From positions 125,817 to 189,816 of the forward strand of contig JAMYWO010000021.1 in the NCBI GenBank assembly GCA_024220525.1: a stretch of DNA of 64,000 bases. Direction: 5' to 3'. Position 1 is the first letter of the stretch; the number at the start of each line of letters is the position of its first letter. The notes beneath the pieces were generated by a model, which did not search any database, was not told where the DNA came from, and was given only the letters and a program-made list of their open reading frames with translations. The DNA comes from Cochliopodium minus (taxonomy: Eukaryota > Discosea > Himatismenida > Cochliopodiidae). Below, in pieces: positions 1 through 57,600 of the stretch. The translations under genes were made by a program, and so were the position numbers.

Positions 1-1555
1 TGGCTTTATTTTTGAGTAAAATTTCAACTAATTCGAGTTTAGTGGGGTTATATTGAATTGCCAATCCAACAAGATTGTCAAAGGAATCTGTTTTACATTT
101 CTTAGAGAGAAGAAATTGAACAAATTCAAAGGAGCGAGAGGTATTGATAATTGCTTTTCTGACTGGGTTGTCATAAATATCATAAGAAGAAAAATCGGGT
201 GATCTCTTGTAGATTTCTTCCAACATTTCGAGAGAAATATTTGGGTTGGAAACAGCAGAAGAAATACTTCCTTTTATGTTTGTTTTTTCATGGAAATATT
301 GAATGATTTCGCTTGTGGCATTGCTATTCAAGTAAAGAATACTCAAGCTGTTGATGTATTTTGATTCGTATTCAAATTTATGAATGTTGTCAATAAAATA
401 TTTGATTATTTGAAAAGATATGTTCTTAGATTTACATGCAATATCAAGAGCATATCTGAGTTCAATTTTTGTACCAAGGTTCACACTAGCGTTATTCTCA
501 ATCAAAAAATCGATTATTTCCAAATTTTTTCCATATTCAATAGCAAAATGTAAAGGAGAACAACCTCCGTCTCTAATTTCTGATCTCTGATTTAAATCAC
601 AACCACTATCTATCAAAAGTTTTATGATTTCTTTGGTTATTTTGCTATTTTTACAAGCATAATGAAGAAAATTCTTGTCATTTATTTTTTCGTTGTGCAA
701 ATCTGAAAACATTTTAATAACTGTAAAACATGGATTTTTTTTTTTTAGGCAATAATTCAAAGTATTCTTTCCAAAATTTATTCCAATTTTCTTTACTTTC
801 AAATTAATATCCGCTTTCTTCTCAAAAAGAAATTCTGTATATTGTCTTGAAAGTTCCATGTTTTCATTCTTTGATGCAATCATCAAAAAAGTTTCATATT
901 GTTCATTTTTCGAATTGATATCAACATTGAATCTTTTTAAAATTTCATTCAAAATATTTTTTGGTATCAACTTGTCTTTAAAAGCATATTCGTTCCCAAA
1001 TATATCGAACATCTTTTCTTTCCAATCAAAATCAATATTTTTGGAAGAAATAGTGTCAAAAATAAATTGCAACACCTCTTCATCAAGGTTTTTTCTTTTG
1101 AATAACTTTTTAATTTTGAAATTAGGAGTAATATCCTTGGAAATTAATAATCTCAATATTTTGATGTTGAAATTTTTGTTATCAAGAAGAAGATTGAATG
1201 CACTGTTCCCAAATATATCTTTTTTATTCAAATCTGCTCTACTATCCAGACATAAGTAGAGAATCTCTTCATTCAAAAGAGTTTTCGAACAAAGATGATG
1301 GAAAGGTGTTTTCCCATTGGAATCTTGTTTGTTCAAATCTCCTCCATTCTCTAATATCAATTTAATAATTTCAAAATTAATTTTCCTATTCCAACAGATT
1401 TTATGGAAAAGAGTTTTCTCATTGATTGATTTGAATTTATTGATATCTCCCTTCTTTTCAAAAAATTTGGAAAGAAATTCAAACTTCAAAAATTCTTTAT
1501 CTAATTTCTCATCCTTTATATTTCCAATATTAATTTCTTTATTTCCAATATTCAT
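1..1555 (-). CDS. Ankyrin-repeat protein, copy 1 (3' part beyond the window)
   Basis: One open frame of 518 codons runs from an ATG at 1555-1553 to the window start without a stop. It begins MNIGNKEINIGNIKDEKLDK. The body holds degenerate ankyrin-like units, for example NGGDLNKQDSNGKTPFHHLC and ADLNKKDIFGNSAFNLLLDN. It is a clear paralogue of the gene at 36649-38822: both share the N-terminal NIGNIKDEKLDKEFLK stretch and the same order of repeats, and the last visible residues match that gene's LVGLAI...VEILLKN segment near residue 510. Expected missing parts are about 80 residues of repeats plus a second exon with the family's C-terminal module. Ankyrin repeats bind other proteins; no enzymatic motif is visible and the partner is unknown. 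The long intronless first exon is unusual for this window but shared with the sister gene. Confidence 0.8.
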   Translation of the reverse strand, partial: MNIGNKEINIGNIKDEKLDKEFLKFEFLSKFFEKKGDINKFKSINEKTLFHKICWNRKINFEIIKLILENGGDLNKQDSNGKTPFHHLCSKTLLNEEILYLCLDSRADLNKKDIFGNSAFNLLLDNKNFNIKILRLLISKDITPNFKIKKLFKRKNLDEEVLQFIFDTISSKNIDFDWKEKMFDIFGNEYAFKDKLIPKNILNEILKRFNVDINSKNEQYETFLMIASKNENMELSRQYTEFLFEKKADINLKVKKIGINFGKNTLNYCLKKKNPCFTVIKMFSDLHNEKINDKNFLHYACKNSKITKEIIKLLIDSGCDLNQRSEIRDGGCSPLHFAIEYGKNLEIIDFLIENNASVNLGTKIELRYALDIACKSKNISFQIIKYFIDNIHKFEYESKYINSLSILYLNSNATSEIIQYFHEKTNIKGSISSAVSNPNISLEMLEEIYKRSPDFSSYDIYDNPVRKAIINTSRSFEFVQFLLSKKCKTDSFDNLVGLAIQYNPTKLELVEILLKNKA

Positions 1556-1816
1556 TGATAAATGAAGTTTATATCAAAGATCAATCTATTTTTTTTTATT
1601 TATTTCTTAATTTTTTAACTCTATTTTGCTATAAAAAATTCAATCAAACAAATCAAAATTTTGAAAGAAGAGGAGTTGTTAAACTTTATGAATAATTGAT
1701 ATATGCTTTTTAAATTATTTAAAATAATTAATGGAAATTTTTTATATCTTTTAACAATCTTTATAATAACAATCTTATAAATAACATTTTCATAAAATCA
1801 AAAAAATTTGAGAGGA

Positions 1817-26468: not shown

Positions 26469-29400
26469 ATGGGACAACACTTAGATAAAAATCCCACCAA
26501 AAGTACTGATCTACAAGTAGCAATATATAATTCAATAAAACAAGATGGATATCAAATCAAAGTCCCCATCCCAACCGAAAACAGCAGATTTTTGAAAACC
26601 TATATTTGCTCACATGATACCAAACCTGGATCTTTCTTGGTCAAATTATTCATAAAGAGTGGGAATATAGATCTTCAAAAACATGCAAATGAAGTGATAC
26701 GTGATTATTTTTCTTTTCAAATAACCTTTTCTTTTTTAACCTTTCTTTATAATTTCACCAAAATATTTAAAATCTATCCATAATTCAATATCTATTATAA
26801 TCAACTTTGTTAAAATAATATTGAATATATCTTGATTATTATTGAACTATTAAATTTATGATGTATTATAGAACATATCATCAAATAAATTTGATATAAA
26901 ACTGTATTGAAGAATCATATAACTTTGATATATTTAAAATTATCACTCAATTAAAGTGATCAGAGACAATTTCATTGATAGAATCAATACCAAAAATGTG
27001 TTTCCTTTTCAAATCGCCAAAATAAATGAGAAAAGTGGAGTGGCATATCTTGTGAGACAATATTTCACTCATAATCTTGTGGATAGGCTTGGGTAAAGAT
27101 TTATTTAAAATACATCACCTTTCAAACATTCTAAATACATTCAAAAAATAAGAACGAGACCATTTCTTGATAAAATTGAAAAGAAATGGATAACTTTCCA
27201 ATTGATAAATGCATTGAATGAAGCACAATTCAAAGGAATATCACATGGAGATATAAAATCAGAAAATGTAATTGAAATTTCTTTTTCATTAAAAAATAAA
27301 ACAAAAAATCGTTCCAAATTGACAACTTTGATTTTTAAAAAATAATAGGTAATGTTGACAAGTTGGCATTGGGTATATCTCACTGACTTTGCAAGTTACA
27401 AACCAACATACTTAACAGACGACATATCAGATTGGTCCTACTTCTTCAAAACTAGTGGTAGAACGTGCTACTTGGCACCAGAAAGGTTCCAAACGAAAGT
27501 CCCAGAGAAAGGAGAGTTGACACCTGCTATGGATGTTTTCAGTATTGGTTGTGTCATTGCCGAACTTTTTTTTGACGAAAGAGTTTTGTTTGATCACAGT
27601 AACTTGTTGAAATACAAAAGAGGAAAATATGACCCAAATTCCATCATCAAATTGATTGAAGATGAGGGAATCCAACAACTTGTAACTGACTGTATAAAGT
27701 TAAACCCAGAAGATAGACCTACTACAAGGGAAATATTAGATAAATGGTATTTTTTTTTAACAAAAACGTTTTGTATTTAATTATTTATTACTTTTCTTCA
27801 GGGATACAGTTTATAGTGGTCAATCATATTTTCCATTTCTCCATGAATATATGAAGCAAATCGCCAATAAAAATTTTTCTGAACGATTGGAGATGATTGA
27901 AAAGGATTTTGAAATGCTCCTTTCAAAAATAATACCCAACTACAACCCTAAAATCGGAAACGAGGTCGAAATACCTGAACATTCAAGTATGAATAAAAAA
28001 AAAAAACAATCTTTAAAAATAAAAATCAATATTTTTATTCAAAGTGCAAACTGAGGAACCAGAGTCGACAGAGGTTTTGAACTTTAAAGAAAAATTGAAT
28101 GAAATGAATCTCTACACAATATCTTCTGAAACAGAAAATTTTGTTTTGGAGCTCCAAAAAAAAATATTTCCGGTATACGAAGAAAATCAAGTGAAAGATG
28201 AAAACTTGGAAACGAAACCAAAAAAGAAAGAAAACACAGTGATTAACTACTCAAACACTTATTTAAGTAATGACTTGGACACATTTGAAGAAGAAACCCA
28301 AAATAATGAAATATTGGATAGTGAGGGTGTTGTTTTGCTTTTGACTGTTGTTTGTTCTTCTATGAGGAATGTCACTGAAACAAGAAAGTCTAAGCTCACC
28401 GCTGCTAGGTTACTTGTCAAAATGGCCAGATTTTTGAGCGACGAGTGCAGGCTCCAAAGAATTGTTCCTTACTTGTTCAGCTTGTTGCCTGCAGAAGATG
28501 AACCTCTCATTAGAGCCACAGTAATTATTGGAGTAACTGAAGTTGTAAGTTTTTCCAAAAAAAAAATATATATAACATTTAAAATATTTTTTATTTTAAT
28601 TTCAATTTTTTTAATTTCAATTTATTTAAAAAAAGTTGGAGATGATTAATGACTTTCCTAGAAGTGATTCACATGTTTTTCCAAACTATATCATTCCTAA
28701 AATCTCTGATTACTCAAAAGACAGAAGCGAAATCGTACTGGAAGCATTCGCGTCTTGTCTTTCTCGGTTGGCAAAGACTTCCAAGAAATTTCTTGAAATC
28801 TCACAAAGATTCAAAACCAAGAACAGAAAAGTGAGCAAAACTATGTCCAATAATGAAGTCGAACAGCCCAGTTTGGACTCAGAACTGGACAATCTCAGAA
28901 AAACTTTCTACAGCTTTTGGGGAGATCTCATTTCATGTGATTATACTTCTGTCAAGAAAAGATTATTGATTGTAAAAAAACTCTTTCACTTTCTAAATTT
29001 TACAATCTCTCTTTTTTTTTTTACAAAGGATCTGGATACAATCTGCAACTTTTTTGAAAGAAAAATATCAATTGACAAAATTATTCCGTTCTTACCTACT
29101 TTTTTGAACCCCATCGCAAACTGGGAGCTAAGAGCAGCTACATTCACCAAAATAGTACCAGTGATGGTGTTTGTGGGATCAAAACCACTCGAAAACATGT
29201 TCGAAATATTCCTCCAAACCGTTTACGACGAACAAGAAACAGTTGTAGAAAAATCGATAAACACACTCGCCTCCTTTTGTAGAGAAGGACTCATCAACAA
29301 ACAAAGAGTTCTCACAAAACTTTTAAAGATTTGCATCCCCTTGATTTGTCATCCTAATCAATGGGTAAGATTCGGTGTGATCTCTTTGATTTCGGGAATT

Positions 29401-31314
29401 TGCGAAAACAAAAAGAACACTTTCTCAAAGGTGGATGTGAATTGCTTTCTTTTAACTCATTTGAAAGAATTTTTGGTTTACCCCATCACCAAGTTCAACC
29501 AGAATACTCTCCTTGATGCTACGAAGAGGCCAATACCCAGAGAAGACTTTGAGGAGGCTTGTAAAGTTGCAAAGGAGAGTTTTGAAATCTCCTCCACTTC
29601 AGAACACCTCAAAAACTTTAAAAACGAATTCGTCACCTTTTTGAAAGAAAGATTTAGAGATACCTCTGAAGAGAAGAAGGAAACAATAGAAACTATTATT
29701 TTGATGACCGACTACTTTAAAGAATACCAAAAGAATATCAAGACATCCAAGTATGATTCGGATGGAAGAGTACAGAACATTTTCAAAAACATTTCGGTCA
29801 ACACTCCTGTTTACAGTGAAAAATCAGGTGATTCTATGAAAGATATCCCCAAAGAAATTTCAGTGAAAGATTTTCCCAAACTCCTTTCCAAAATGGGTGA
29901 TGAAGAAAAGTATGGTGAAGAAGATTACCAGAAAAAATACAACTTTTACCCTTCAAACATCACCGTCGTTCCAGTCAACAAAGAAAAAGAAAGTATCAAC
30001 CGTGGTCCTTCTGATTATCATTCCATCGGTAGCCCCAGCGAAAGAAGGAAGTATCTCAAAGCGGATAACTTCCAAGGTACTCTCGTTGCTCATTTAAACG
30101 AACATAAAGGTTCCGTGAATCAAATATCAGTGAGTGATGATTGTCAATTCTTTGCGAGTGGATCGAGTGATGGGACTGTCAAAATATGGGATTGCCAAAG
30201 ACTCAAAACAAATGTCACCAACAGATCTCGTTTAACTTGCAAAATAAACAAAGGAAGGATTTTGAGTGTTTCCATGATTGAAAAGTCTCACACTGTTATT
30301 AGTGGTTCTGATCAAGGAAATCTCCATATTTTCAATGTTGAGTATGAAAAGAAAACGGGAAATCAATCGGGAATAATCAAGTACAACTCTATTTCTACTG
30401 CAGATTACATTGATCGTTCTGCTTTTGGTGCAATTTTGCAGATGGAACATTTCAATCACAAAGCATCTCTTTCTTCTTCTCAACAATCTGTTTTGTCTTT
30501 TGCTACAAGTAAAGGTTTTGTTTGTGGAATTGACTTGAGAACTAAAAATTACAAAAACAGTTGGCAACTCGAAAATCCTTCCAAATTTGGATTGTTAGAA
30601 TGTTATGTTGTTGATCCTCAAAGAAATTGGCTCATTTGTGGAACAGATCAAGGTTTTTACAATTTGTGGGATTTGAGATTTCAATTATTGGTGAGATCTT
30701 GGAGGGATCCTCGTGGTACCAAGATCAACAAACTTGTTTATGGTACTCGTCTCGGAGATGAAAAGATTTATTCTTGTGTTTCTGAAGAGAATCATCCTTC
30801 CATCACTTGTTGGGATATTCAAAACTTAAAATGTACTCAAATTTACAGAGCAAATCTTAATGAAAAAGAAAATCCAGAAATTAACAATGTGGATCTTTAT
30901 CAAAACCCTCCTCTCGTCTCCCAATTTGACTTTTCTATTTGTGAACCTTCAATAGAAAAAAATCTAAAGTCCAGAAACTATTTTAAAACTCTTTTGACTG
31001 ATAGAAACTCTTACATCATAACTTCAGGTACTGACAAGACAATTAGATTTTGGGATCTCAAAGAACCTAAAAATTCAAAAGTAATTTCAGGTCCTAGAAA
31101 AGAAAACAAGATCCCTATTTATTCTTCTTCTCAAACAAAAGACATTGATATCTTTCAAGAAAATTGGATAGATGAAAAAGACAAGATAAATCTTAATGTA
31201 AACAGAAATTTGGAAACAAATCATAATGATTGCATTCTTGATTTAAAGTTCCTTGAACCATACAATATGCTTGTGAGTGCTTCAAGAGATTGTACAATCA
31301 AAGTTTGGAAATGA
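26469..31314 (+). CDS. VPS15: VPS15/PIK3R4 regulatory subunit of class III PI3-kinase, copy A
   Basis: Eight exons (26469-26700, 26957-27092, 27153-27267, 27349-27746, 27802-27986, 28045-28544, 28636-28971, 29029-31314) give 1395 residues, close to human VPS15. VPS15 anchors and activates VPS34 on endosomes and autophagosomes. MGQHLDKN is a myristoylation-type N-terminus. The kinase-like domain shows YLVRQYFTHNLVDRL, TRPFLDKIEKKWI, HGDIKSENVMLTSWHWVYLT, DFASYKP and CYLAPERF. HEAT repeats follow (about 420-850), with RLLVKMARFLSDECRLQRI and NWELRAATFTKIVPVM. WD40 blades (991-1395) include FASGSSDGTVKIWD and, at the end, DCTIKVWK. Intron 28972-29028 is 57 nt, in frame and stop-free; the same position is a normal intron in copy B. 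Residues encoded by 30115-30710 are nearly identical to copy B. Confidence 0.95.
30115..30710 (+). repeat. Gene-conversion-like tract shared with VPS15 copy B
   Basis: These 596 bp are the reverse complement of 44411-45006 with only two differences (A versus G in TTGTCAATTC, G versus A in GGATCGAGTG, both within the first 50 bp). Sequence on both sides diverges sharply. Two shorter identical blocks follow: 30817-30875 (with 44254-44312) and about 31220-31318 (with about 43819-43917). Confidence 0.95.
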
Positions 31315-36648: not shown

Positions 36649-38822
36649 ATGAATATCACAGAAAAGAATATTGGAAATATAAAGGATGAGAAATTAGATA
36701 AAGAATTTTTGAAGCTTGAATTTCTTTCCAAATTTTTTGAAAGTAAGGGAGATATCAATAAATGCAATCCAATCAACAAGAAAACTCTTTTCCACAAAAT
36801 CTGTTTGCAAAGGAAGATTAATTTTGAAATAATCAAATTGATATTGGAGAATGGAGGAGATTTGAACAAACAAGATTTCAACGGGAAAACACCATTCCAT
36901 CATCTTTGTTCAACAACTCTTTTGAATGAAAAAATATATTCACTTTGTTTGAAAAAGAAAGCAGATTTGAACAAAAAAGATAAATTTGGGAACAATGCAA
37001 TTAATCTTCTTCTTGATAACAAGATCTTCAACATCAACATATTGAGATCACTTGTTTTGATGGATGTTACTCCAAATTTCAAGTTGGGAAAACTGTTTAA
37101 AAAAAAAAACCTTGATGCAGACCTTTTGAAATACTTTGCCGAAACTGTTACTACTAAGAACACTGATTTTTGTTGGAGAGAAAAATTATTTGATATTTTT
37201 GGAAATGAGAACGCATTCAAAGGAAGGGGGATCCCAAAGAAAACTTTAGAGGGAATAATCACCCGTTTCAATATTGACATCAACTCAACCAACAATCGTT
37301 CAGAATCTTTTTTGATGGTTGCTGCAAAGAACAAGAACAAGGATCTCGCTTTTCAATATTGTGAATTTTTGGTGGAAAAAAAAGTAAATCATATTTTAGT
37401 AGCTTCTCGTAAAAATGTAAGAAAGGATGCGTTATTTTTTAGTCTCAAAAACAAAAACCCCTGTTCAGATGTAGTGAATCTTTTGTTAAATTTGAATAAA
37501 GAAAGATTGAAAAATGGGAGTCTTCTCCATATCGCCTGCATGAACAAAAATATAACAAGAGATATTATCAAGACTTTGTTATCAAATGGCTGTGATATTA
37601 ATTACATATCTTATCAGTTTTCAAGAGCATTTGCTCCTTTGCATTATGCCATAGATTACGGAAACAGCTTGGGAATTATAAAGTACTTGATTGACAACAA
37701 AGCTAGTGTAAAACAAACTGGAAGACTCGGATACGATGCACTTTCTTTTGCTTGTAACTCTCGTTTTATTTCTTTTGGAATGATAAAATATTTTGTTCAA
37801 ATCTTCAAAGAACTAAAATTTGATTATAAGAGTGAAGTTCAACATGATAATCCTGTCAATATACTTTACAGAAATCTTAATATCACAATCGAAATTGTCA
37901 AGTATTTTCACAGAAATACAACTTTTGTTGGAAGCATATCTTTCGCAACATCTAACCCTAGTATTTCTCTTGAAATATTAGAAGAAATTTACAAGAGATC
38001 ACCTGTATTATCTGATAAATATTATAACCCAATCAAAGGAGCCATTCTTAATCCCAAACGTTCTCTTGAAATTGTACAATTTTTAATCTCCAAAAAGTGT
38101 ATTACAAAATCATATGACAACCTTGTTGGTTTAGCTATTGAACTTGGAAAAAGTAATGAAATTGTAGAAATTTTACTCAAAAATCATGTAGCTACAAAGA
38201 AAGAGGAAGATAAGTATTTAAAGAAGCCTACTATTTATTTTGCCATTCAAAAACCTTTTAATCTTCAATTGTTTCGATTACTTATTAATCATGGAACAGA
38301 TTTAAACGTCCAATATTATGATTCACACTTATACCTTTCTCCTCTTCATTATTCTATAAATCGTTCATCAAAAAATAATAATGATGATACAACCTATTTT
38401 TTGCTTGCAAATGGTTCTCATTCTAACCTTGTAAAAAACAATTAATCTTCTAAATTATTTTTTATCTAATCTTATTTTAATTTTAGCAACCTACTCCCTA
38501 CCAATATTCCCTCAATTTACACCAATATTTATCAGATGATGATTCAAAGAATCATAAAGGGGAAAAAGTTAAGAGTACAAGTCATTTGTTATTTCAACAA
38601 TTGTTCCAAGAAAAATTTTGGTCCAAAGAAAAGCATCATCTTTTCTCTAAAAACATCAGATTCAAGATTCACATTTTGTTTTTGGCCTCAAGAATTATTT
38701 CCAAACGAATCCAACTTTTGTTTCCAAAACCTCTCATTTACATCATAATCCAAAAGTTTATTTCTTATGAAATCTTATCAAACTTTGAATTTAAAGAAAA
38801 TGAGATACGAAATGGCTCCTGA
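36649..38822 (+). CDS. Ankyrin-repeat protein, copy 2 (complete)
   Basis: Two exons (36649-38430 and 38487-38822) give 705 residues. It is the only complete member of a three-gene family in the window. About 16 degenerate ankyrin units fill residues 30-590, for example NGGDLNKQDFNGKTPFHHLC, LLHIACMNKNITRDIIKTLL and GTDLNVQYYDSHLYLSPLHY. The second exon encodes a separate C-terminal module of about 110 residues (PTPYQYSLN...LFQQLFQEKFWSKE...LLFPKPLIYIIIQKFIS) that is conserved in the copy at 63507-64000. The LFPKPLIxxIIQK helix resembles the short degron-adaptor boxes (F-box or SOCS-like) found after ankyrin repeats in other proteins, so a role as a ubiquitin-ligase substrate adaptor is possible; that is inference. 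The intron is 56 bp. Confidence 0.82.
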
Positions 38823-40072: not shown

Positions 40073-40257
40073 CAATTGCTCATATGAAAAATAATTAATT
40101 TTTTGTAAATAAACTTCTTTTGAAGAAAATTTAAATTGAATTTTTTTTTTATAATTTATTATTTTTGTTTGAAAGCTTGGAATTTTTTAAAATAAAATTG
40201 AAAATGAAATATTTGTAAAAAAAAAAAAAAAAATTGAAAATCTAAATAAACAAAAAC

Positions 40258-43200
40258 ATGAATATACCACCACCACCAATATATTTAACATTAAATGATC
40301 TTGGAAATAATCTATTCAAAGCAGTAGAAGGTAAATTTAATAAAAATATGAAAATAATGGCAGAGGATAGGAGCAAAGATGTTAAATTTTATAATCTTTA
40401 TTCAAAGATAAAATGAAATATATTTATTATTTACTAAATATATTAGGCTTCTTATTTGTATCATTGAATCATTTCTTATAATGATTAGATAGTATTTATA
40501 TTGTATCCTCGTGTCTCACTTTAAATATATCCTCATTTTAAAATATATAAATATAGATACAGTAGATATAAACATTACAACCACTTGCAAAAGAATTTCA
40601 AGCGAAAAAGTAAGAATAATAAAATTAGAAAATAAAATGAAATTAAAAAAAAAAATTTAATTATTCAAATCCAAAAGGTGGATTGGAGTGTAACCGTAGA
40701 ATCAAAAACTCAAAAGATCCAAAAAGTAGTCTACCATTTGCATTCTAGCTTCAACCCAAACAAGGTGGAAGTGTTGAATAGTCCATTCCAAATTTTCAGA
40801 AGTGGATGGGGATCATTCGAATTGAAAATCCAAATAGAATTTGAACAAAGTAAAAAAAAACAATTAATTATTTGTATTTTATTTTATTTTTTATTTTTAT
40901 TTTTATTTTTTCTTTTTATTTTTTAATTTATTTTTATTTTATTTTTTATTTTTTATTTTTTAATTTTTTTCATTAAATTTTTTATTTTTTAAAGATGAAA
41001 ATTTATTGGAGAGATCTTACACAGTCGGTCACTTGCTTGACTTGAACATTTCAAAGTCAACAAAGTTGGTGAAGCTTACTGTCAAAAGACCATTGAAATG
41101 TTCAGAGTATCTCCACCTAGAAATAGGGAGCAAATGGGAAAAATTTGGTCAATAAAAATAAAAAATAAAAAAAATAAAAATAAATAATAAATTAGAAAAT
41201 AATATCAATAGTAAATAAATAAATAAATTAAATAATTTTAGTTTTTACTTCATTTCAATTTAATTTTCATTGATTTATTTCAATTTTTTTTATTTAAAAA
41301 TAAAAAAGATGATTTGTATAAATACACGGTCTTTATTAATCCCAAAACCAAAAAAAAGCCCAACAACGCCAAAATAACTTTCCCAAAGAACATGAACATA
41401 ACGGAAACTTTTAAAGAGTTTCCCGTCTCCTTCGACAACATCGGAGACGGAATTCCATTCGAGATTTCCATCAAAATAAACGTTTTGACACACATGAAAA
41501 CCATCAACATTGTTCATACCGTTTCTTTCGACAAACCCCTTTCTTCTTCCCTTTATTTCCTGCCTCTCCCCAATAAATTGGAAGAATCTCTCTGTGATCT
41601 CAATTTCAACCAGAAAACCAACCAATATCTCGAAATCAACTCTGCCAATCAATTTATTGAGAATGCTTTCGACAAAGACAAAGTAAAAAAAAAAAAATTG
41701 TTTTTTTAAATAATTTAATTTATATTTAATTATAATTAATTTTTATTTTTTTATTTTTATTTTTTCAATTTTATTAATTTTAAACTTTTTAATTAAAATT
41801 TTTTTTTTAACAGAAACAAGATTTTAATCAGGCAATAATATACTTTTTGCTGATGACCAAACAAAGAATTCCGGTGCCACTCCAGATAATGAGCAAAGCA
41901 AAGAACATGTCCCTCAAGAATTATGTTGTGAAAAACAAAGCGTTGCTTCAAATAGAAGGATGGATCGAAAAAAACTGGATCAACTACATCATGGGAAAAG
42001 AATCTTTTGAGCAAATACAAAGTAAAATAACCAAACAATCTCCTGGTAATTTCTTTTATTAATTAAATTTTTTATTTTTATTTTTTATTTTTCTTTGTAA
42101 TTTTTAAATTAATTTTTTCACAATTTTTTATATCTATTATTTTAAAAAATTTCCACAAATAAATTTCAATTATTTTGAACAAATTTCCATTAATATCTTT
42201 TAAAAAAATTTCCACAATAAATTTCAATTTTTTTTCAAAAAAAAAGGTGTTGTTGCTACAAAACTCTTTACTGATAAATTTTGTAGTAGTTTGATTGAAG
42301 AAATGGACCATTTGAAAGAAGAAGTTCCATTCTGCGATCTGAACAGAAAGGGAATCAACTTGTTGGACATTGGATTTAAGGGGTTTTTCGATAAGTTACA
42401 ATATTTCGTAACTAAACTCTGCAAAACACAACATCCTTGTCTCAAATACATGGAATGTAAACAGGCCTATGTAAGAAAAAAATAAAAAATTTTTTTAAAA
42501 TTTTTTTAAATGTTTTTTTTTTTAAAATTTTATAAAAGGTTTTAAAATATGATCCTAAAGAAGAACATTCCCATGAAATTCATGTTGATGAATCTGATTT
42601 AACTTGTAAAAAAAAAAAATTTTTTTTAAAACTTTATTTAGTTTTTTCTAAATAAATCTAAAAATGAAACCACTTTTTATTGATTTAATTTTTCAAATTG
42701 AAAAAAAAAAAAAAGTGAATCTTTGTCTGGGAAAGAATTTTGAAGGTGGAGCTTTGAAAACGGTTCCAAAAGCTTTTGATGAACCAAACAACAAGTTCCC
42801 CTCCAAAAAAGAAAAGTATTTGCAAGAATTTCTCACCACTGAAGAGAGGAAGAATGTTGACAGTGTTTATATTCATCCTCAAATCCCTGGTAACCTCCTT
42901 TTTCACTCTGGTGCACTTTCTCACTTGACTGATCCTATTACAAGTGGAAATAGGTAAATAAATTTTTTTTAACATTTTTTGTCACATTTTTTATTAAAAT
43001 TTTTTTATTCAATTTATTGTAAAAGATATAATCTAATTATTTGGTTCAATGCTACTTTTGAATTGGGAAAACTTATTGACACACTTCCTTTGGATATAAC
43101 CACCCTTATATTCTCATTTTTGCAGTTCAAGGACATAAGAAACGTTTCCCTCTCTTGCAAAAAGTACAGCCAAATCACCAAAAACGAAAAGTTATGGAGA

Positions 43201-43296
43201 TTGATTTTCAATAAGAAATTTGACACTAAATCAAAAGAATTGCTCACAGAAGAAGAACAAAAAAACTTTCTTGGAGAAGTGCAAAATTTTAAATAA
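40258..43296 (+). CDS. Fusion protein: YEATS-like domain(s), 2OG-Fe(II) oxygenase, F-box
   Basis: Ten exons (40258-40330, 40557-40609, 40678-40849, 40995-41147, 41309-41682, 41814-42045, 42247-42470, 42539-42605, 42716-42953, 43026-43296) join in phase to 618 residues. Residues 25-140 form a YEATS-like fold (VVYHLHSSFNPNKVEVLNSP then RSGWGSFELKIQIEF), the reader of acylated lysines. Residues 155-290 (KITFPKNMN...FEISIKINVL) look like a second, diverged copy. Residues 350-530 are a prolyl-hydroxylase-like 2OG-Fe(II) oxygenase with HEIHVDES (HxD), LTLNLCLGKNFEGGALK, a distal His in LLFHSGALSH and TSGNRYNLIIWFN (2OG-binding Arg). Residues 533-600 are an F-box (IDTLPLDITTLIFSFLQFKD...EKLWRLIF). 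The oxygenase-F-box junction is one uninterrupted exon. The stop at 43296 may be a frameshift artefact (see findings): a further exon at 43391-43741 encodes a Met/His/Pro repeat tail. Confidence 0.85.
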
Positions 43297-43390
43297 CCCT
43301 CAATTCTCTTGGAGCAGACCTATCCAAAATAATGAAGTAAAAAAAAATAGTTTTTTAAAAATTTTTATTTCTAATTTTATTCTTTTTTAG

Positions 43391-43741
43391 GGTTTTGGTT
43401 TGTACCCTCCTTTGAACCCTCCTTATCCCATGAGAATGCCATACAATCACAACCCCATGATGAGGCATGCTCCTCCTCCAATGAATCCTAAAATGATGAG
43501 AATGCCCTATCATCATCACAACCCCATGATGAGACATGCTCCTCCTCCAATGAGAATGCCTTATCATCATCATAATCCAATGACCAGACGGATGCCTCCT
43601 CCCATGAGAGTCCCACAATACCACAACTACAGACAGATGCCTCCAAATGAACGCCCTTCTCCAAATTTGAATCAATACCCTTATTCTCCTTCTCTGAAAA
43701 TTGTTGAGAATCCAAAGGAATCAATTTGTTGGATTTTTTAA
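43391..43741 (+). CDS. Probable last exon of the YEATS-oxygenase-F-box gene (Met/His/Pro-rich tail)
   Basis: An open frame after a TTTTTTAG acceptor begins GFGLYPPLNPPYP and runs 117 codons to a TAA. It holds imperfect repeats of PMMRHAPPPM and PYHHHNPM, ending in Asn/Pro-rich sequence. Its phase (0) fits a donor at 43336|GTAAAA. The frame leading to that donor (NNPQFSWSRPIQNNE) would join the F-box frame if one A of the run 43283-43286 were absent. Met/His clusters could bind metal, but that is speculation. It could instead be a separate small gene, though no ATG opens it. Confidence 0.6.
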   Translation, partial: GFGLYPPLNPPYPMRMPYNHNPMMRHAPPPMNPKMMRMPYHHHNPMMRHAPPPMRMPYHHHNPMTRRMPPPMRVPQYHNYRQMPPNERPSPNLNQYPYSPSLKIVENPKESICWIF

Positions 43742-43821: not shown

Positions 43822-46800
43822 TCATTTCCAAACTTTGATTGTACAATCTCTTGAAGCACTCACAAGCATATTGTATGGTTCAAGGAACTTTAAATCAAGA
43901 ATGCAATCATTATGATAAACATCAGAATATTTGCTGTTATTATTTTCACCACTCTTCCAATTCTCTTGAACAACATGAAACTTTCCTTTAGGAAAAGAAT
44001 AATAAATGGGAATTCTATCATTCCTTCTGTAACCAGTGATAATCCTAGAACTCTTTGAATCTTTAAGATCCCAATACCTAATTGTCTTGTCAGAACCACC
44101 AGTAATAAGAAAAGAGTTACGATCAGTTAAAAGGGACCTGAAAGAATCTATAGGATGATGTGACTCTGTGTTCCTTGTTTGAGTCTTGTAATAAGAAGAA
44201 TCTAAATGAGAGTAGAGAGAAGGATTTTGGTATCGTTCAATGTCTGTAAAGTTAGGATTTTCTTTTTCATTAAGATTTGCTCTGTAAATTTGAGTACATT
44301 TTAAGTTTTGAATGTCCCACAGATGAATGGAAGGATTCTTTCTGTCAACAATCGAAGAGTAAATTTTATTGTTTCCTGCATAAGCCATTTTACAAATTTT
44401 GGATTTGGTAGGATCCCTCCAAGATCTCACCAATAATTGAAATCTCAAATCCCACAAATTGTAAAAACCTTGATCTGTTCCACAAATGAGCCAATTTCTT
44501 TGAGGATCAACAACATAACATTCTAACAATCCAAATTTGGAAGGATTTTCGAGTTGCCAACTGTTTTTGTAATTTTTAGTTCTCAAGTCAATTCCACAAA
44601 CAAAACCTTTACTTGTAGCAAAAGACAAAACAGATTGTTGAGAAGAAGAAAGAGATGCTTTGTGATTGAAATGTTCCATCTGCAAAATTGCACCAAAAGC
44701 AGAACGATCAATGTAATCTGCAGTAGAAATAGAGTTGTACTTGATTATTCCCGATTGATTTCCCGTTTTCTTTTCATACTCAACATTGAAAATATGGAGA
44801 TTTCCTTGATCAGAACCACTAATAACAGTGTGAGACTTTTCAATCATGGAAACACTCAAAATCCTTCCTTTGTTTATTTTGCAAGTTAAACGAGATCTGT
44901 TGGTGACATTTGTTTTGAGTCTTTGGCAATCCCATATTTTGACAGTCCCATCACTTGATCCACTCGCAAAGAACTGACAATCATCACTCACTGATATTTG
45001 ATTCACTGAATCTTTGTGTTCATCCAAATTAGTCACAAAGGTTCCACTTATTTTCTTTGGATCAAAAGTTTGAATGGTGACACTATTGTTGCTGGGTATG
45101 GATTGATAGAAAGAATACTTTTTTTTAAACTCCTCTTCATTCATCACATCCTTTATTTCATTTTCAATTGAGTACTTATTGTTTAGTTGGGTTTCTTTGT
45201 TCACATTGGTGGTTAATTTTGTAATCTCTTCAAAATCCCTTTCCTCCTCCTTTTCTTTCTCATTGAATTCTTTGAAATAGTCAAACATAAGAACCAAAGT
45301 TTCCAGGACATCTTTCTTCCCATCTCCCACTTTCTTTTTGATCAAACAGCTTTCAAACTCGGTTTTGTAATCTACCTTTTCGGAAGAGAGATGACTGATA
45401 TCATTTGCAATATTGGATGCTTTGGAGAAATCTTCCCTTGAAACAGATTTCTTTACTGCATCAAGAAGAGTGCTTTGATCAAACTTTGTGATTGGATAAA
45501 CCAAAAAAGGTTCTAGATGAGGAAGAAAAAAGCATTTGACTTGTGTGGTAGAAAATGTGTTTTTTCTATTTTCGCAGATGTTCAAAACCAAAGAGATGGC
45601 ACCGTATCTTATCCACTGATTAGGATGACAAATCAAGGGAATGCATATTTTGAGAATCTTTATGATGTTTCTTTGTTTATTGATGAGACCCTCTCTGCAA
45701 AAGGAAGACAATGCGTATATTGCTTTTTCCACAACTATTTCTTGTTCATCGTATACAGTTTGTAGGATAATTTCTATCATGTTTTCGAGTGGTTTGTGTC
45801 CTATCAGAATCATCACTGGTACTATTTTGGAAAATGTTGATACTTTGAGTTCCCATGGAGAAAAAGTGTTCAAGAAAGTTGGAATGAAAGGGATTATCTC
45901 TTCTATTGCTGTTTTTCTATCAAAAAAATCACAAAATACATTCAAGTCCTTTGTTATAATAAAAATATTAGTTATGATTTCTTTTCAAAATGATGGAAAA
46001 ATGTTTTACGTTTAAAATGCACTTTTTTACAGAAACAGATGGGTCTGATATCAGTTGAATAAAAATATTGTAAAACATATCCCTCAAAGTATTGGGTAGA
46101 GAATTTCTGGTCTCTCCTTTTTGAAATTTATCGGAAATATCCAAAAAATTGTTGGAAGACTTGATCAAGGAAGAAAGGGAAGAAGCAATGGACTCTCTGA
46201 TTATTTCATTTGGGTTTTTGATGTACTGTGCTATTTTAGGAAGAATATAACTCGAAATAACAAAAGTGTAGTCATTCTCAAAATCAACAATCATTTCCAA
46301 CTAAAGAAAATAAAAAAAAAACAATTCAAAAAAAGATATTTTTACCACTCGAGTAATACATCTTATTGTGAAAGCTATAACAAGTGGTTCTCCTCCATAA
46401 ATTGCACTGAACATATAAGGAATGACTCTATGTATTTTGTGATCATCACTGAGATGTTTAGCTAATTTTAGGAGAATTTTGGATGCAACAAAGTTTTGTT
46501 TAGAAGGAACGTTCCTGATGCAACTGTAAATGTATGTCAACAACATTATCGCTCCGCTTGTTTCCTCTTTAAAAAAAAAAAAACAAAAAAGTTAATAATT
46601 AATTATAATGATGGAGTAATTACTTTGATCTTCATTATTTTGAGAAATTTCAGATATGATTTTGTCGTAATCTTCTTCAATCAGCTTCAACTTGTTTTCA
46701 AAACTTTTTGTTGATAATTCCTTCAAGTAATAGTGAAAAAATTGGAAATAAGCAGGTCCATTATATCTCGTTGCCCTAAACCATCAATAATTTCAAAATT

Positions 46801-54651: not shown

Positions 54652-57600
54652 ATGAATAAGTTATTCAAAAGAAAGATACCATTAAAAAATATATTCCTCA
54701 AAAATAAAGAGAATGTCAATTTCAAATTCAATAGATTCAAATATTGCACAAATGTTACAGAAGGTAGAAAAAATATTCACAACTACTTAATTCCATAATT
54801 TTTGATTAAAATATCAATAAGATAAGAAAATAGAAGATATGGTGAGGAATGAACAACCACATACTGTATTGATTGATTCGAGTGCAATTATATACAAGAG
54901 TTATCATTCTATAAGTGCAGATCTTCACAAAGATGGAGTGAAAACAAATGCAGTGTTCGGGTTCATCAGATCTCTTCTGAATATAATGGAAGATTTGAAA
55001 CCTATAGATTATATAGCCATAGTAGGAGATACATCAAGAAATACAAATTGGAGGAGAAAATTTCATCAGAAATATAAAGAGAATAGGGATGAAGTGCCAA
55101 GTGATTTAATTCCACAAGTAAAAAGAAAAAGATTAGACACAAAAAAATATTCAATTTAATTTTGATTTAGTTTCCCATCATTGTTGAGGGAACCAATGCT
55201 TGTGGGATAAAGTATATCAGCCAAGATACATTTGAATCAGATGATATCATAGCAACTCTTTCAAAGAATGCAGAAGAAAAAGGTCATAAAGTAACGATTG
55301 TATCTCCTGACAAAGACTTCTGTCAACTCATTACGCCCAACATCAGTTTATACGATCCAAACAAGGACGTTTATTTGAAGAGGGATGATGTAAAGACCAA
55401 ATTTGATGTTTTTCCTGAACAATTCATTGAGTTTCAATCTCTTTCTGGAGACAAATCTGACAACAGTAATTCATTTAATCATCACTATTTCTTTTTTGTT
55501 ATATACTTTTATTAGTACCTGGAGTGAAGGGTATTGGTCCTAAAAAAGCAGCCATTTTGCTTAACAAATTTGGGAACATAGAAAATATTTACAACAAAAT
55601 TGATGAAGTTGCAAAAACTGAGAAAAAAGCATTGTTAGGGTATAAAGATGATTTGGAAATTTCAAGAAAACTAGTTACATTAGTTGACAATGTTCCAATA
55701 CCAAGCACTTTAGAAGATTTAAAGTTTACCCAACTTAACAAAACAACAGTAAAAATTTTTATTAATATAATTTCTTTTATTCATTTATTTTGATTTTCCA
55801 TAGTTGTATAATTTCCTTAAAGAGTACAATTTCTATGCTATCATCAATAAGCACTTTGGAAGTTATGTAGCTCCTCCTTCTAAAAAACGTAAGTAGAAAA
55901 ATTTAATCCGTTATTAAACTAATTATTTTTTTTTTAAAAAAAAAAAGAGGAACAAAATATTACTCAAGAAATATCTAAAATGAAAGGAGTTACTATTGTT
56001 GATAGTCCTGAAACTGCAAAAATCGTCTTAGAAAAACTGATGAAGCTAAATAACGTTTATCATGCTTGTGATACTGAAACAATCGATATTGACGTAAAAA
56101 ATGAGAGTCCAGTAGGACACGGGAAAATTATTTGTGCTTCTATATATTGTGGACCAGAATTTGATTTCGGAAATGGACCAAGAATATGGATAAACAACCT
56201 TGATAAAGCAGAGGGGACAATAAATTACTTTAAAGAGTATTTTGAAGATGAATCTATAAAGAAAGTGTGGCACAATTACAGTTTTGACAAGCACATTCTT
56301 GAGAACCATGGTATCCATTGCAAGGGTTTTGGAGGAGATACTATGCACATGGCGAGATTGTGGAACTCTTCCAGAAACACCACAGGAGGATATTCTCTTG
56401 CACAGTTGTCAAAAGAACTTTTGGGAGAGAACCAAAACAAAAAGACAATGACAGAGTTGTTTGGGAGAGTCAACATGAAAATAGACGGCACTGAAGGAAA
56501 AGAAACAACTGTTCCTCCTCTCGAAGATCTTCAAAGAGACAGTGAAACAATTGAAGGCTGGATCAACTACAGTACCTTGGATACCGAAGCTACTTGGTAC
56601 TTGAGAGAAAAGTTGCATCAAATGTTGAAAGACATGCATTGGCAGAAAAACAGCAACGGAGAGTTCAACATGTGGGATTTCTACCATTCTTACTTTGTTC
56701 CTTTCGGAGAATTGTTGACGGAAATGGAAACAGAGGGTATCAAAGTGGATGTGGAGTATTTGAAGCAAATAGAGCAAGTTGCCTTGAAAGACTTGGAGAA
56801 AAATCAAAATGTTTTCAAGCTGTGGGCTTCCAAGTATTGTCCTGACGCTTTGTACATGAACACCAACTCTGCTGCTCAGAAACAACAGCTCTTTTTCGCT
56901 CCTGCTGTCAACAGTAAGACCAAAGAGCAAATGCCCATCGAAGCTTTGTTCAAAGTGCCCAATGTTGAAGGTTACATTGAAGAAGGAAAGAAAAAACCAA
57001 AGAAAAATAGGGACATCAAATTAAGAGGGTAAAAATTTCTTTTTCTTTTCTTTTTTCTTTTTCTTTTTCTTTTCTTTCTATTTCTTTTTTTTTAACCTAT
57101 TTAGTTTATTCACCTTATTTTTTTTATTAGTTTTGGTTTTCCTGTTCTGGAAACAAGCGATAGTGGTTTTCCTAGTGTTGGTGGTGATATTTTGAAAAAA
57201 TTGGCAGGATCTGATCTCAACTCTAAAAGTCCAAGATGGGGAATTGCGTAAAAAAAAAAAAACTTTTTTTATTTTGAAATTAATTTTTAATTTTTTATTG
57301 TAATTGATTTTAAAAAGAATTAAAAGGATTTTATTTTGCATTTAATTTAGATTAATTATTTTTTAAATTTAAAAAAATTATTTTAAAAGAATTTATTTGA
57401 AAAAAATTCATCCAAATTCATTTTTATTTTTTTAATTTTATTTTTTTAAAAAAGCTACAACTTCTTCGGAGGAGGAGCAGAAGGAGAAGAAGCCTGCAAA
57501 GCGATTGCCTCCCTCGTAGAAACAGCAGCAATCGACACGCTCCTCAGCAACTTCATCCTCCCTCTCCAAAGAATCGTCGACAAAAACAACAGAGTACACG

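Follow-up and report, generated by a model that had tools for sequence, protein, structure and literature searches.

Proteins that combine a chromatin reader, a 2-oxoglutarate (2OG) oxygenase and an F-box in one polypeptide are known from KDM2A/B, and the F-box of KDM2B contacts the CUL1 ligase (PMC7000146). In Dictyostelium, JcdI combines an F-box with a 2OG oxygenase and binds Skp1; it has been shown to depend on oxygen and has relatives that are widespread in protists (PMC9485057). In Acanthamoeba a sirtuin and a YEATS domain are joined in AcSir2 (PMC7376869). Here we analyse a gene of Cochliopodium minus that lies at 40258-43296 on the + strand of a 64,000-nucleotide stretch (the window; part of contig C21, JAMYWO010000021.1, positions 125,817 to 189,816), and compare it with relatives found by searching the genome (44.65 Mb in 598 contigs). 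Our favoured, if tentative, reading is that this one gene encodes a YEATS-bearing F-box oxygenase, which would dock on acylated lysines, hydroxylate a side chain and be tied to Skp1 and the Skp1-cullin-F-box (SCF) ubiquitin ligases.

An earlier reading of the locus, made from the letters alone (the sequence-only reading), had joined ten exons in phase to give 618 residues and had named the three domains from motifs. The joining was reproduced, with ten exons splicing in phase into 618 amino acids and the stop at 43294-43296, and the profile search which that reading had itself suggested retained all three domain assignments. Its 'YEATS-like' call could be upgraded to YEATS (62.7 bits against a cut-off of 22), the HxD...H...R ligands that it described as intact are present, and its F-box was confirmed by profile and found, as it had said, in one exon with the last strand of the oxygenase.

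The three domains and the exons that encode them

In the spliced protein the Pfam YEATS family (PF03366) matches residues 44-116 at 3.2e-17, and the unspliced open frame around exon 3 matches it at 1.7e-15; the prokaryotic pYEATS model matches less well (37.1 bits, cut-off 26.9). Compared with solved structures in the PDB, the YEATS part finds TAF14b at 7.3e-8 and also YEATS2, Sas5, Taf14, YEATS4, AF9 and ENL, and a profile built from four YEATS sequences of the same genome finds YEATS4 (3.9e-21). In the alignments with TAF14b and YEATS2 the HLHSSF and GWG motifs line up, and their residues H64, S66, F67, W86 and G87 are encoded at 40741-40812, within exon 3. Judged by motif the aromatic acyl-lysine cage is present: F67, W86 and G87 are matched by identical residues in TAF14b, and S66 and H64 presumably have roles in the cage as well. 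The aromatic pair and glycine that meet the acyl group are F62, W81 and G82 in Taf14, the aromatic pair of AF9 being F59 and Y78 (PMC6212594), and F67 and W86-G87 would correspond to these by motif. Among three aligned relatives of the YEATS type, the window sequence is 38% identical to that on contig C9, 32% to that on C116 and 30% to that on C114.

By eye, a second YEATS domain had been suggested in exon 5 (about residues 151-240) as a degenerate repeat, and we do not claim it. In local alignments of exon 5, 466 of 1000 shuffles score as well as the real sequence against the first YEATS domain, 187 of 1000 against the C9 domain and 529 of 1000 against that of C114; Pfam at E up to 10 lists no YEATS for this exon, and a profile comparison is collinear but gives P = 0.087. 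Neither do we claim DUF6694, which reaches 0.008, under its cut-off, on a fragment of about residues 240-352.

The oxygenase is matched by the Pfam OGFOD2-like family (PF25238) over residues 319-414 of the spliced protein (6.9e-9, 36.2 bits, cut-off 31) and on the unspliced frame of exon 7 (2.2e-7, 31.3 bits), and falls under the same cut-off on two other cuts of the sequence (28.9 bits in the genome search and 26.3 bits for a fragment from residue 353). H442, D444, H519 and R529 make up the HxD...H...R set, and these positions are invariant in 3 of 3 aligned oxygenases, namely that of the window and two others of the same genome; from knowledge of the family we take them to be the iron triad and the 2OG-binding arginine. 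When a profile of three oxygenase sequences was compared with the PDB it found lysyl hydroxylases (6ax6 at 7.8e-10, human LH3 at 2.6e-6), with weak matches to a Naegleria Tet-like dioxygenase (0.03) and to F-box proteins (0.053 and up). That the strong match needs this three-sequence profile, the window protein alone reaching a lysyl hydroxylase at E 0.14, counts against the placement. On these comparisons the oxygenase appears to belong with OGFOD2 and to resemble the procollagen lysyl hydroxylases.

At the C-terminal end, the Pfam F-box-like family (PF12937) matches residues 546-591 of the spliced protein (1.2e-9, 38.2 bits, cut-off 24.3) and the unspliced open frame around exon 10 (1.5e-10), and PF00646 is also over its cut-off (29.6 bits against 20.5). 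The oxygenase is firmly joined to this F-box, because the codon of R529 is split between exons 9 and 10 and completed by their splice, because exon 10 reads on into the F-box, and because a relative on contig C88 aligns across the boundary between the two domains, matching window residues 499-606 within one 328-residue open frame (8.8e-10, 29% identity).

The exons of the gene, and two further stretches at its 3' end, are as follows.

40258-40330, + strand: exon 1, with the start codon and a Pro-rich N terminus (open frame in fitting phase; GTAAAT donor)
40557-40609, + strand: exon 2 (GTAAGA donor, phase; 0.86 bits/codon)
40678-40849, + strand: exon 3, bulk of the YEATS domain (Pfam YEATS match on the open frame around the exon)
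40995-41147, + strand: exon 4, end of the YEATS domain (match crosses the 3/4 junction to residue 116; non-consensus GTCAAT donor)
41309-41682, + strand: exon 5, middle region (no Pfam family over cut-off; 1.21-1.44 bits/codon)
41814-42045, + strand: exon 6, beginning of the OGFOD2-like region (match spans the 6/7 junction)
42247-42470, + strand: exon 7, N-terminal part of the oxygenase (OGFOD2-like match on the surrounding open frame)
42539-42605, + strand: exon 8, HxD iron ligands H442 and D444 (invariant in the three-sequence alignment)
42716-42953, + strand: exon 9, second iron ligand H519 (invariant in the three-sequence alignment)
43026-43296, + strand: exon 10, final oxygenase strand and F-box (43075-43212; F-box-like match on the open frame)
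43262-43336, + strand: coding-like stretch running past the F-box stop in a frame other than that of the F-box (1.19 bits/codon, frame score 0.24)
43391-43741, + strand: possible C-terminal tail exon rich in Pro, Met and His (116-aa open frame behind the TTTTTTAG acceptor at 43390; 1.44 bits/codon)

The introns of the ten-exon model measure 68-226 nt and have 4-19% GC, the exons 27-38%, and the donors begin with GTAA in eight of nine introns. A codon score for which nine other long open frames of the window served as training set is positive for all ten exons, both relative to intron composition (0.47 to 1.49 bits/codon, exon 1 being the lowest at 0.47) and relative to reading in a wrong frame (frame score 0.08 to 0.59). 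All 27 readings of the nine introns are negative, though the background of the score was built from these introns themselves; outside that background, all 6 readings of two intergenic stretches are negative, as are two of the three readings of 43297-43390. The score discriminates frame poorly, exon 9 shifted by one base still giving 1.05 (frame score -0.38), and phase agreement is weak evidence alone because the splice sites of the model were picked to fit. Single-sequence structure predictions are of low confidence (pLDDT 39 for exon 5 alone, 48.5 for exon 10 alone).

Proposed function and the role of the F-box

A reasonable inference, and no more than that, is that the protein reads, oxidises and directs ubiquitination, because the domains pass their profiles and because the acyl-binding motif and the metal-binding residues are present. 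Most likely, the YEATS domain, in which the aromatic cage motif is in place, would dock the protein on lysines that carry acyl groups, those of histones being the probable ones, and the 2OG-Fe(II) domain would hydroxylate a protein side chain on or near the docked target, probably that of a lysine, which is our best guess because the relatives of the oxygenase are lysyl hydroxylases. The F-box would most likely bind Skp1 and so make the enzyme a subunit of an SCF complex; this tie might either regulate how much of the enzyme is present, in the way suggested for JcdI, or pass the docked partner to the ligase. Acyl-lysine binding, a lysine substrate, Skp1 binding and any ubiquitin outcome are in each case predictions from sequence.

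The behaviour of JcdI makes self-regulation a strong alternative to the ubiquitination of a target. On this account, which we think doubtful but take seriously, the F-box would serve solely the control of the oxygenase itself, through Skp1-dependent turnover or solubility, and no target would be ubiquitinated through it. The oxygen effect of JcdI needs catalysis and not the F-box, and the level of JcdI is lower where Skp1 is modified, a reduction that the F-box may mediate (PMC9485057); in the window gene no Pfam domain was found after the F-box. JcdI, however, has a JmjC oxygenase and carries its F-box at the N terminus, which makes the parallel functional and not homologous, and in the window protein the YEATS domain could itself be the substrate receptor.

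Continuity of the gene, its 3' end and its surroundings

The link from YEATS to oxygenase is weaker than that from oxygenase to F-box, and on the features of the sequence we consider it likely that the two are encoded in one transcript. Two junctions are bridged by a domain match that gains bits on splicing, 3-4 in YEATS (57.2 to 62.7 bits) and 6-7 in the oxygenase (31.3 to 36.2 bits); for comparison, the F-box, which lies in one exon, goes from 41.1 bits alone to 38.2 bits in the whole protein. No recognised domain bridges junctions 1-2 and 2-3. Several observations weigh against the favoured reading. Junctions 4-5 and 5-6 are likewise bridged by no recognised domain, and donor 4 (GTCAAT) is non-consensus. 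The intergenic gap upstream of the gene is 185 nt (40073-40257), as short as an intron, and length therefore cannot exclude two genes. Searched on a hand-spliced protein, the domains of the C88 relative stay under the Pfam cut-offs (F-box-like 0.012, OGFOD2-like 0.0019), so that its F-box is supported chiefly by how it aligns with the window gene. Neither the genome search of C88 nor the sequence upstream of that relative (L032:6830-8403) revealed a YEATS domain, and the trio of domains was thus seen once. Finally, the C-terminal end is coding-like in more than one frame.

If two neighbouring genes were present, a short YEATS gene would comprise exons 1-4 and an oxygenase/F-box gene would start from exon 5 or 6, an explanation that we regard as unlikely. 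It would account for the departure of donor 4 from the GTAA of the other eight donors; read through past this donor, exon 4 soon reaches an in-frame stop (41153-41155), in-frame ATGs lie at 41392 and 41853, and the C88 relative offers an example of oxygenase and F-box with no YEATS seen nearby. Exon 5, however, is coding-like from its acceptor through the 27 codons that precede the first ATG in its frame, and this frame has no ATG upstream, which speaks against the start of a separate gene at this point; in addition, the phases fit, and gap 4 has 8% GC, like the other introns.

The length of 618 residues is provisional, because coding-like sequence runs past the stop in another frame and is met again in the Pro/Met/His-rich stretch to 43741. 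The stretch at 43262-43336 ends at a GTAAAA donor (43337), and the last 12 codons of the F-box frame (43258-43293) score 1.02 bits/codon with a frame score of 0.11. Pfam, searched at E up to 10, gives nothing for the putative tail at 43391-43741. This tail may be part of the gene, in which case the assembly would contain an error, the frame would be broken in this copy, or a weaker donor would be used at 43279, which by hand count would also join the tail in phase; otherwise the tail is separate. By eye, the C88 gene also has a proline-containing stretch after its F-box. The sequence-only reading had drawn its feature to 43741, which takes in a further open stretch outside its 618-residue product.

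Elsewhere in the window, two VPS15-like frames with helical and WD40 regions, at 28630-31311 (+) and 43825-45984 (-), lie in opposite orientation 12.5 kb apart and are 67% identical over 712 aligned residues. Another related pair in opposite orientation, at 2-1573 (-) and 36649-38442 (+), is 60.7% identical over 507 residues, and the frame at 36649-38442, the sole one of the pair scanned with Pfam, has ankyrin repeats. The frame at 55938-57029 (+) has a 3'-5' exonuclease domain of the DNA polymerase A type (9.9e-17) and is possibly an organellar DNA polymerase.

Relatives and comparison with known systems

A search of the genome with the YEATS family gave seven matches at six places (the window, C9, C114, two pieces on C116, C146 and C271), and a search with the OGFOD2-like family gave four matches at three places (two pieces on C29, the window and C57). 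On C9 (L034:1453-3135) and C114 (L035:4218-5750, minus strand), SIR2 pieces lie upstream of YEATS, that of C9 over its cut-off (8.6e-6) and that of C114 below it (6.6e-4); two further pieces between SIR2 and YEATS in C9/C114 matched no family. These look like sirtuin-YEATS fusions, which would combine a deacylase and an acyl-reader if spliced together. The YEATS domain of C9, the nearest relative of the window domain among the three aligned, lies about 1 kb behind its SIR2 piece, as in AcSir2, an arrangement that fits an acyl-lysine role for the YEATS domain of the window. On C88, the gene upstream of the oxygenase and F-box relative (L032:4814-5500, on to 6474) itself begins with an F-box (1.8e-12); its later exons have the look of a small GTPase by eye, but Pfam gave nothing for them at E up to 0.05.

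Beyond this genome, 207 pattern-matching stretches in viral contigs included no relatives, and 280 in prokaryote genomes included one, in Candidatus Uabimicrobium amorphum, a bacterium that engulfs other cells. This sequence (L036:2001-2612), found with the protist profile, is OGFOD2-like at 1.9e-31 with 25% identity, and in the matched 204 aa this is the sole family listed at E up to 0.05.

The chemistry of a known system suggests a further, improbable, variant of the proposed function, in which the protein would be an oxygen-dependent eraser or converter of acyl marks outside the JmjC class, with control of degradation built in: YEATS would bind an acyl-lysine and the oxygenase, using oxygen and 2-oxoglutarate, would oxidise that acyl-lysine or a neighbouring lysine, coupled to SCF ubiquitination. 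KDM3A has recently been reported to hydroxylate acetyl-lysine, with the YEATS domain of AF9 still binding the product, more weakly (PMC13149330), which makes a YEATS-guided acyl-lysine oxygenase chemically plausible; the window protein would then be a non-JmjC counterpart of this acetyl-lysine oxidation. Very unlikely, in our view, is a role in which the F-box would serve to deliver the oxygenase to its substrate, either Skp1 or another part of SCF, as with the separate prolyl hydroxylase PhyA, which in Dictyostelium hydroxylates Skp1 and tunes its F-box binding (PMC9485057), since, although a fused F-box would position the oxygenase at Skp1, the 18 PDB matches of the oxygenase profile include lysyl hydroxylases and no prolyl hydroxylase, and the YEATS domain would be left unexplained.

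Among the systems comparable to the proposed YEATS-bearing F-box oxygenase is the C88 relative in the same genome (L032:6830-8403 and on), in which HxD, H and R likewise lead straight into an F-box-like stretch and a proline-containing tail, and which differs in having no YEATS seen nearby and Pfam scores under cut-off. With the OGFOD2-like oxygenases and the procollagen lysyl hydroxylases (PLOD/LH3) the window protein shares the Pfam OGFOD2-like match, the PDB profile match and the HxD/H/R residues; in the window protein the oxygenase is joined to an F-box and a YEATS domain. OGFOD2-like enzymes are not known to have an assigned substrate, and the natural fusion to a putative acyl-lysine reader, if confirmed, would give them a concrete candidate class of substrates. 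AcSir2 offers the parallel of an amoeban protein in which YEATS is joined to an enzyme, there a deacetylase-type SIR2 with YEATS after it, whereas in the window an oxygenase has YEATS in front (PMC7376869).

Like the window protein, JcdI/Fbxo13 and JcdH, F-box relatives of JmjD6, are F-box proteins of a protist that are themselves 2OG oxygenases. They carry a JmjC oxygenase with the F-box near the N terminus, whereas in the window protein no JmjC is listed and the F-box follows the oxygenase; the combination of JmjC and N-terminal F-box that marks the JcdI/JmjD6 family is thus absent from it. The main text on JcdI does not mention YEATS (PMC9485057).

The sequence-only reading had called the architecture undescribed. 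As a kind it is not new, KDM2A/B and JcdI being known, and what stands is the combination of an OGFOD2-like class of oxygenase with a YEATS reader: search listings of the openly licensed PMC literature gave no description of YEATS, oxygenase and F-box together, and the architecture may exist elsewhere unreported. Similar in overall layout are KDM2A and KDM2B (FBXL11 and FBXL10), in which, as in the window protein, domains that bind chromatin and a 2OG oxygenase are combined with an F-box at the C-terminal end (PMC7000146). KDM2A/B, however, have a JmjC oxygenase, CXXC and PHD readers and leucine-rich repeats (LRRs), where the window protein has an OGFOD2-like oxygenase and YEATS; JmjC, CXXC, PHD and LRR are not among the six Pfam families listed for it at E up to 1, and it is therefore not a member of KDM2, but could work like one. 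If confirmed, the layout of reader, oxygenase and F-box arose here with other parts, YEATS in place of CXXC/PHD and an OGFOD2/lysyl-hydroxylase-like enzyme in place of JmjC, which would point to a convergent pressure linking oxygen sensing, lysine acylation and ubiquitination within one protein.

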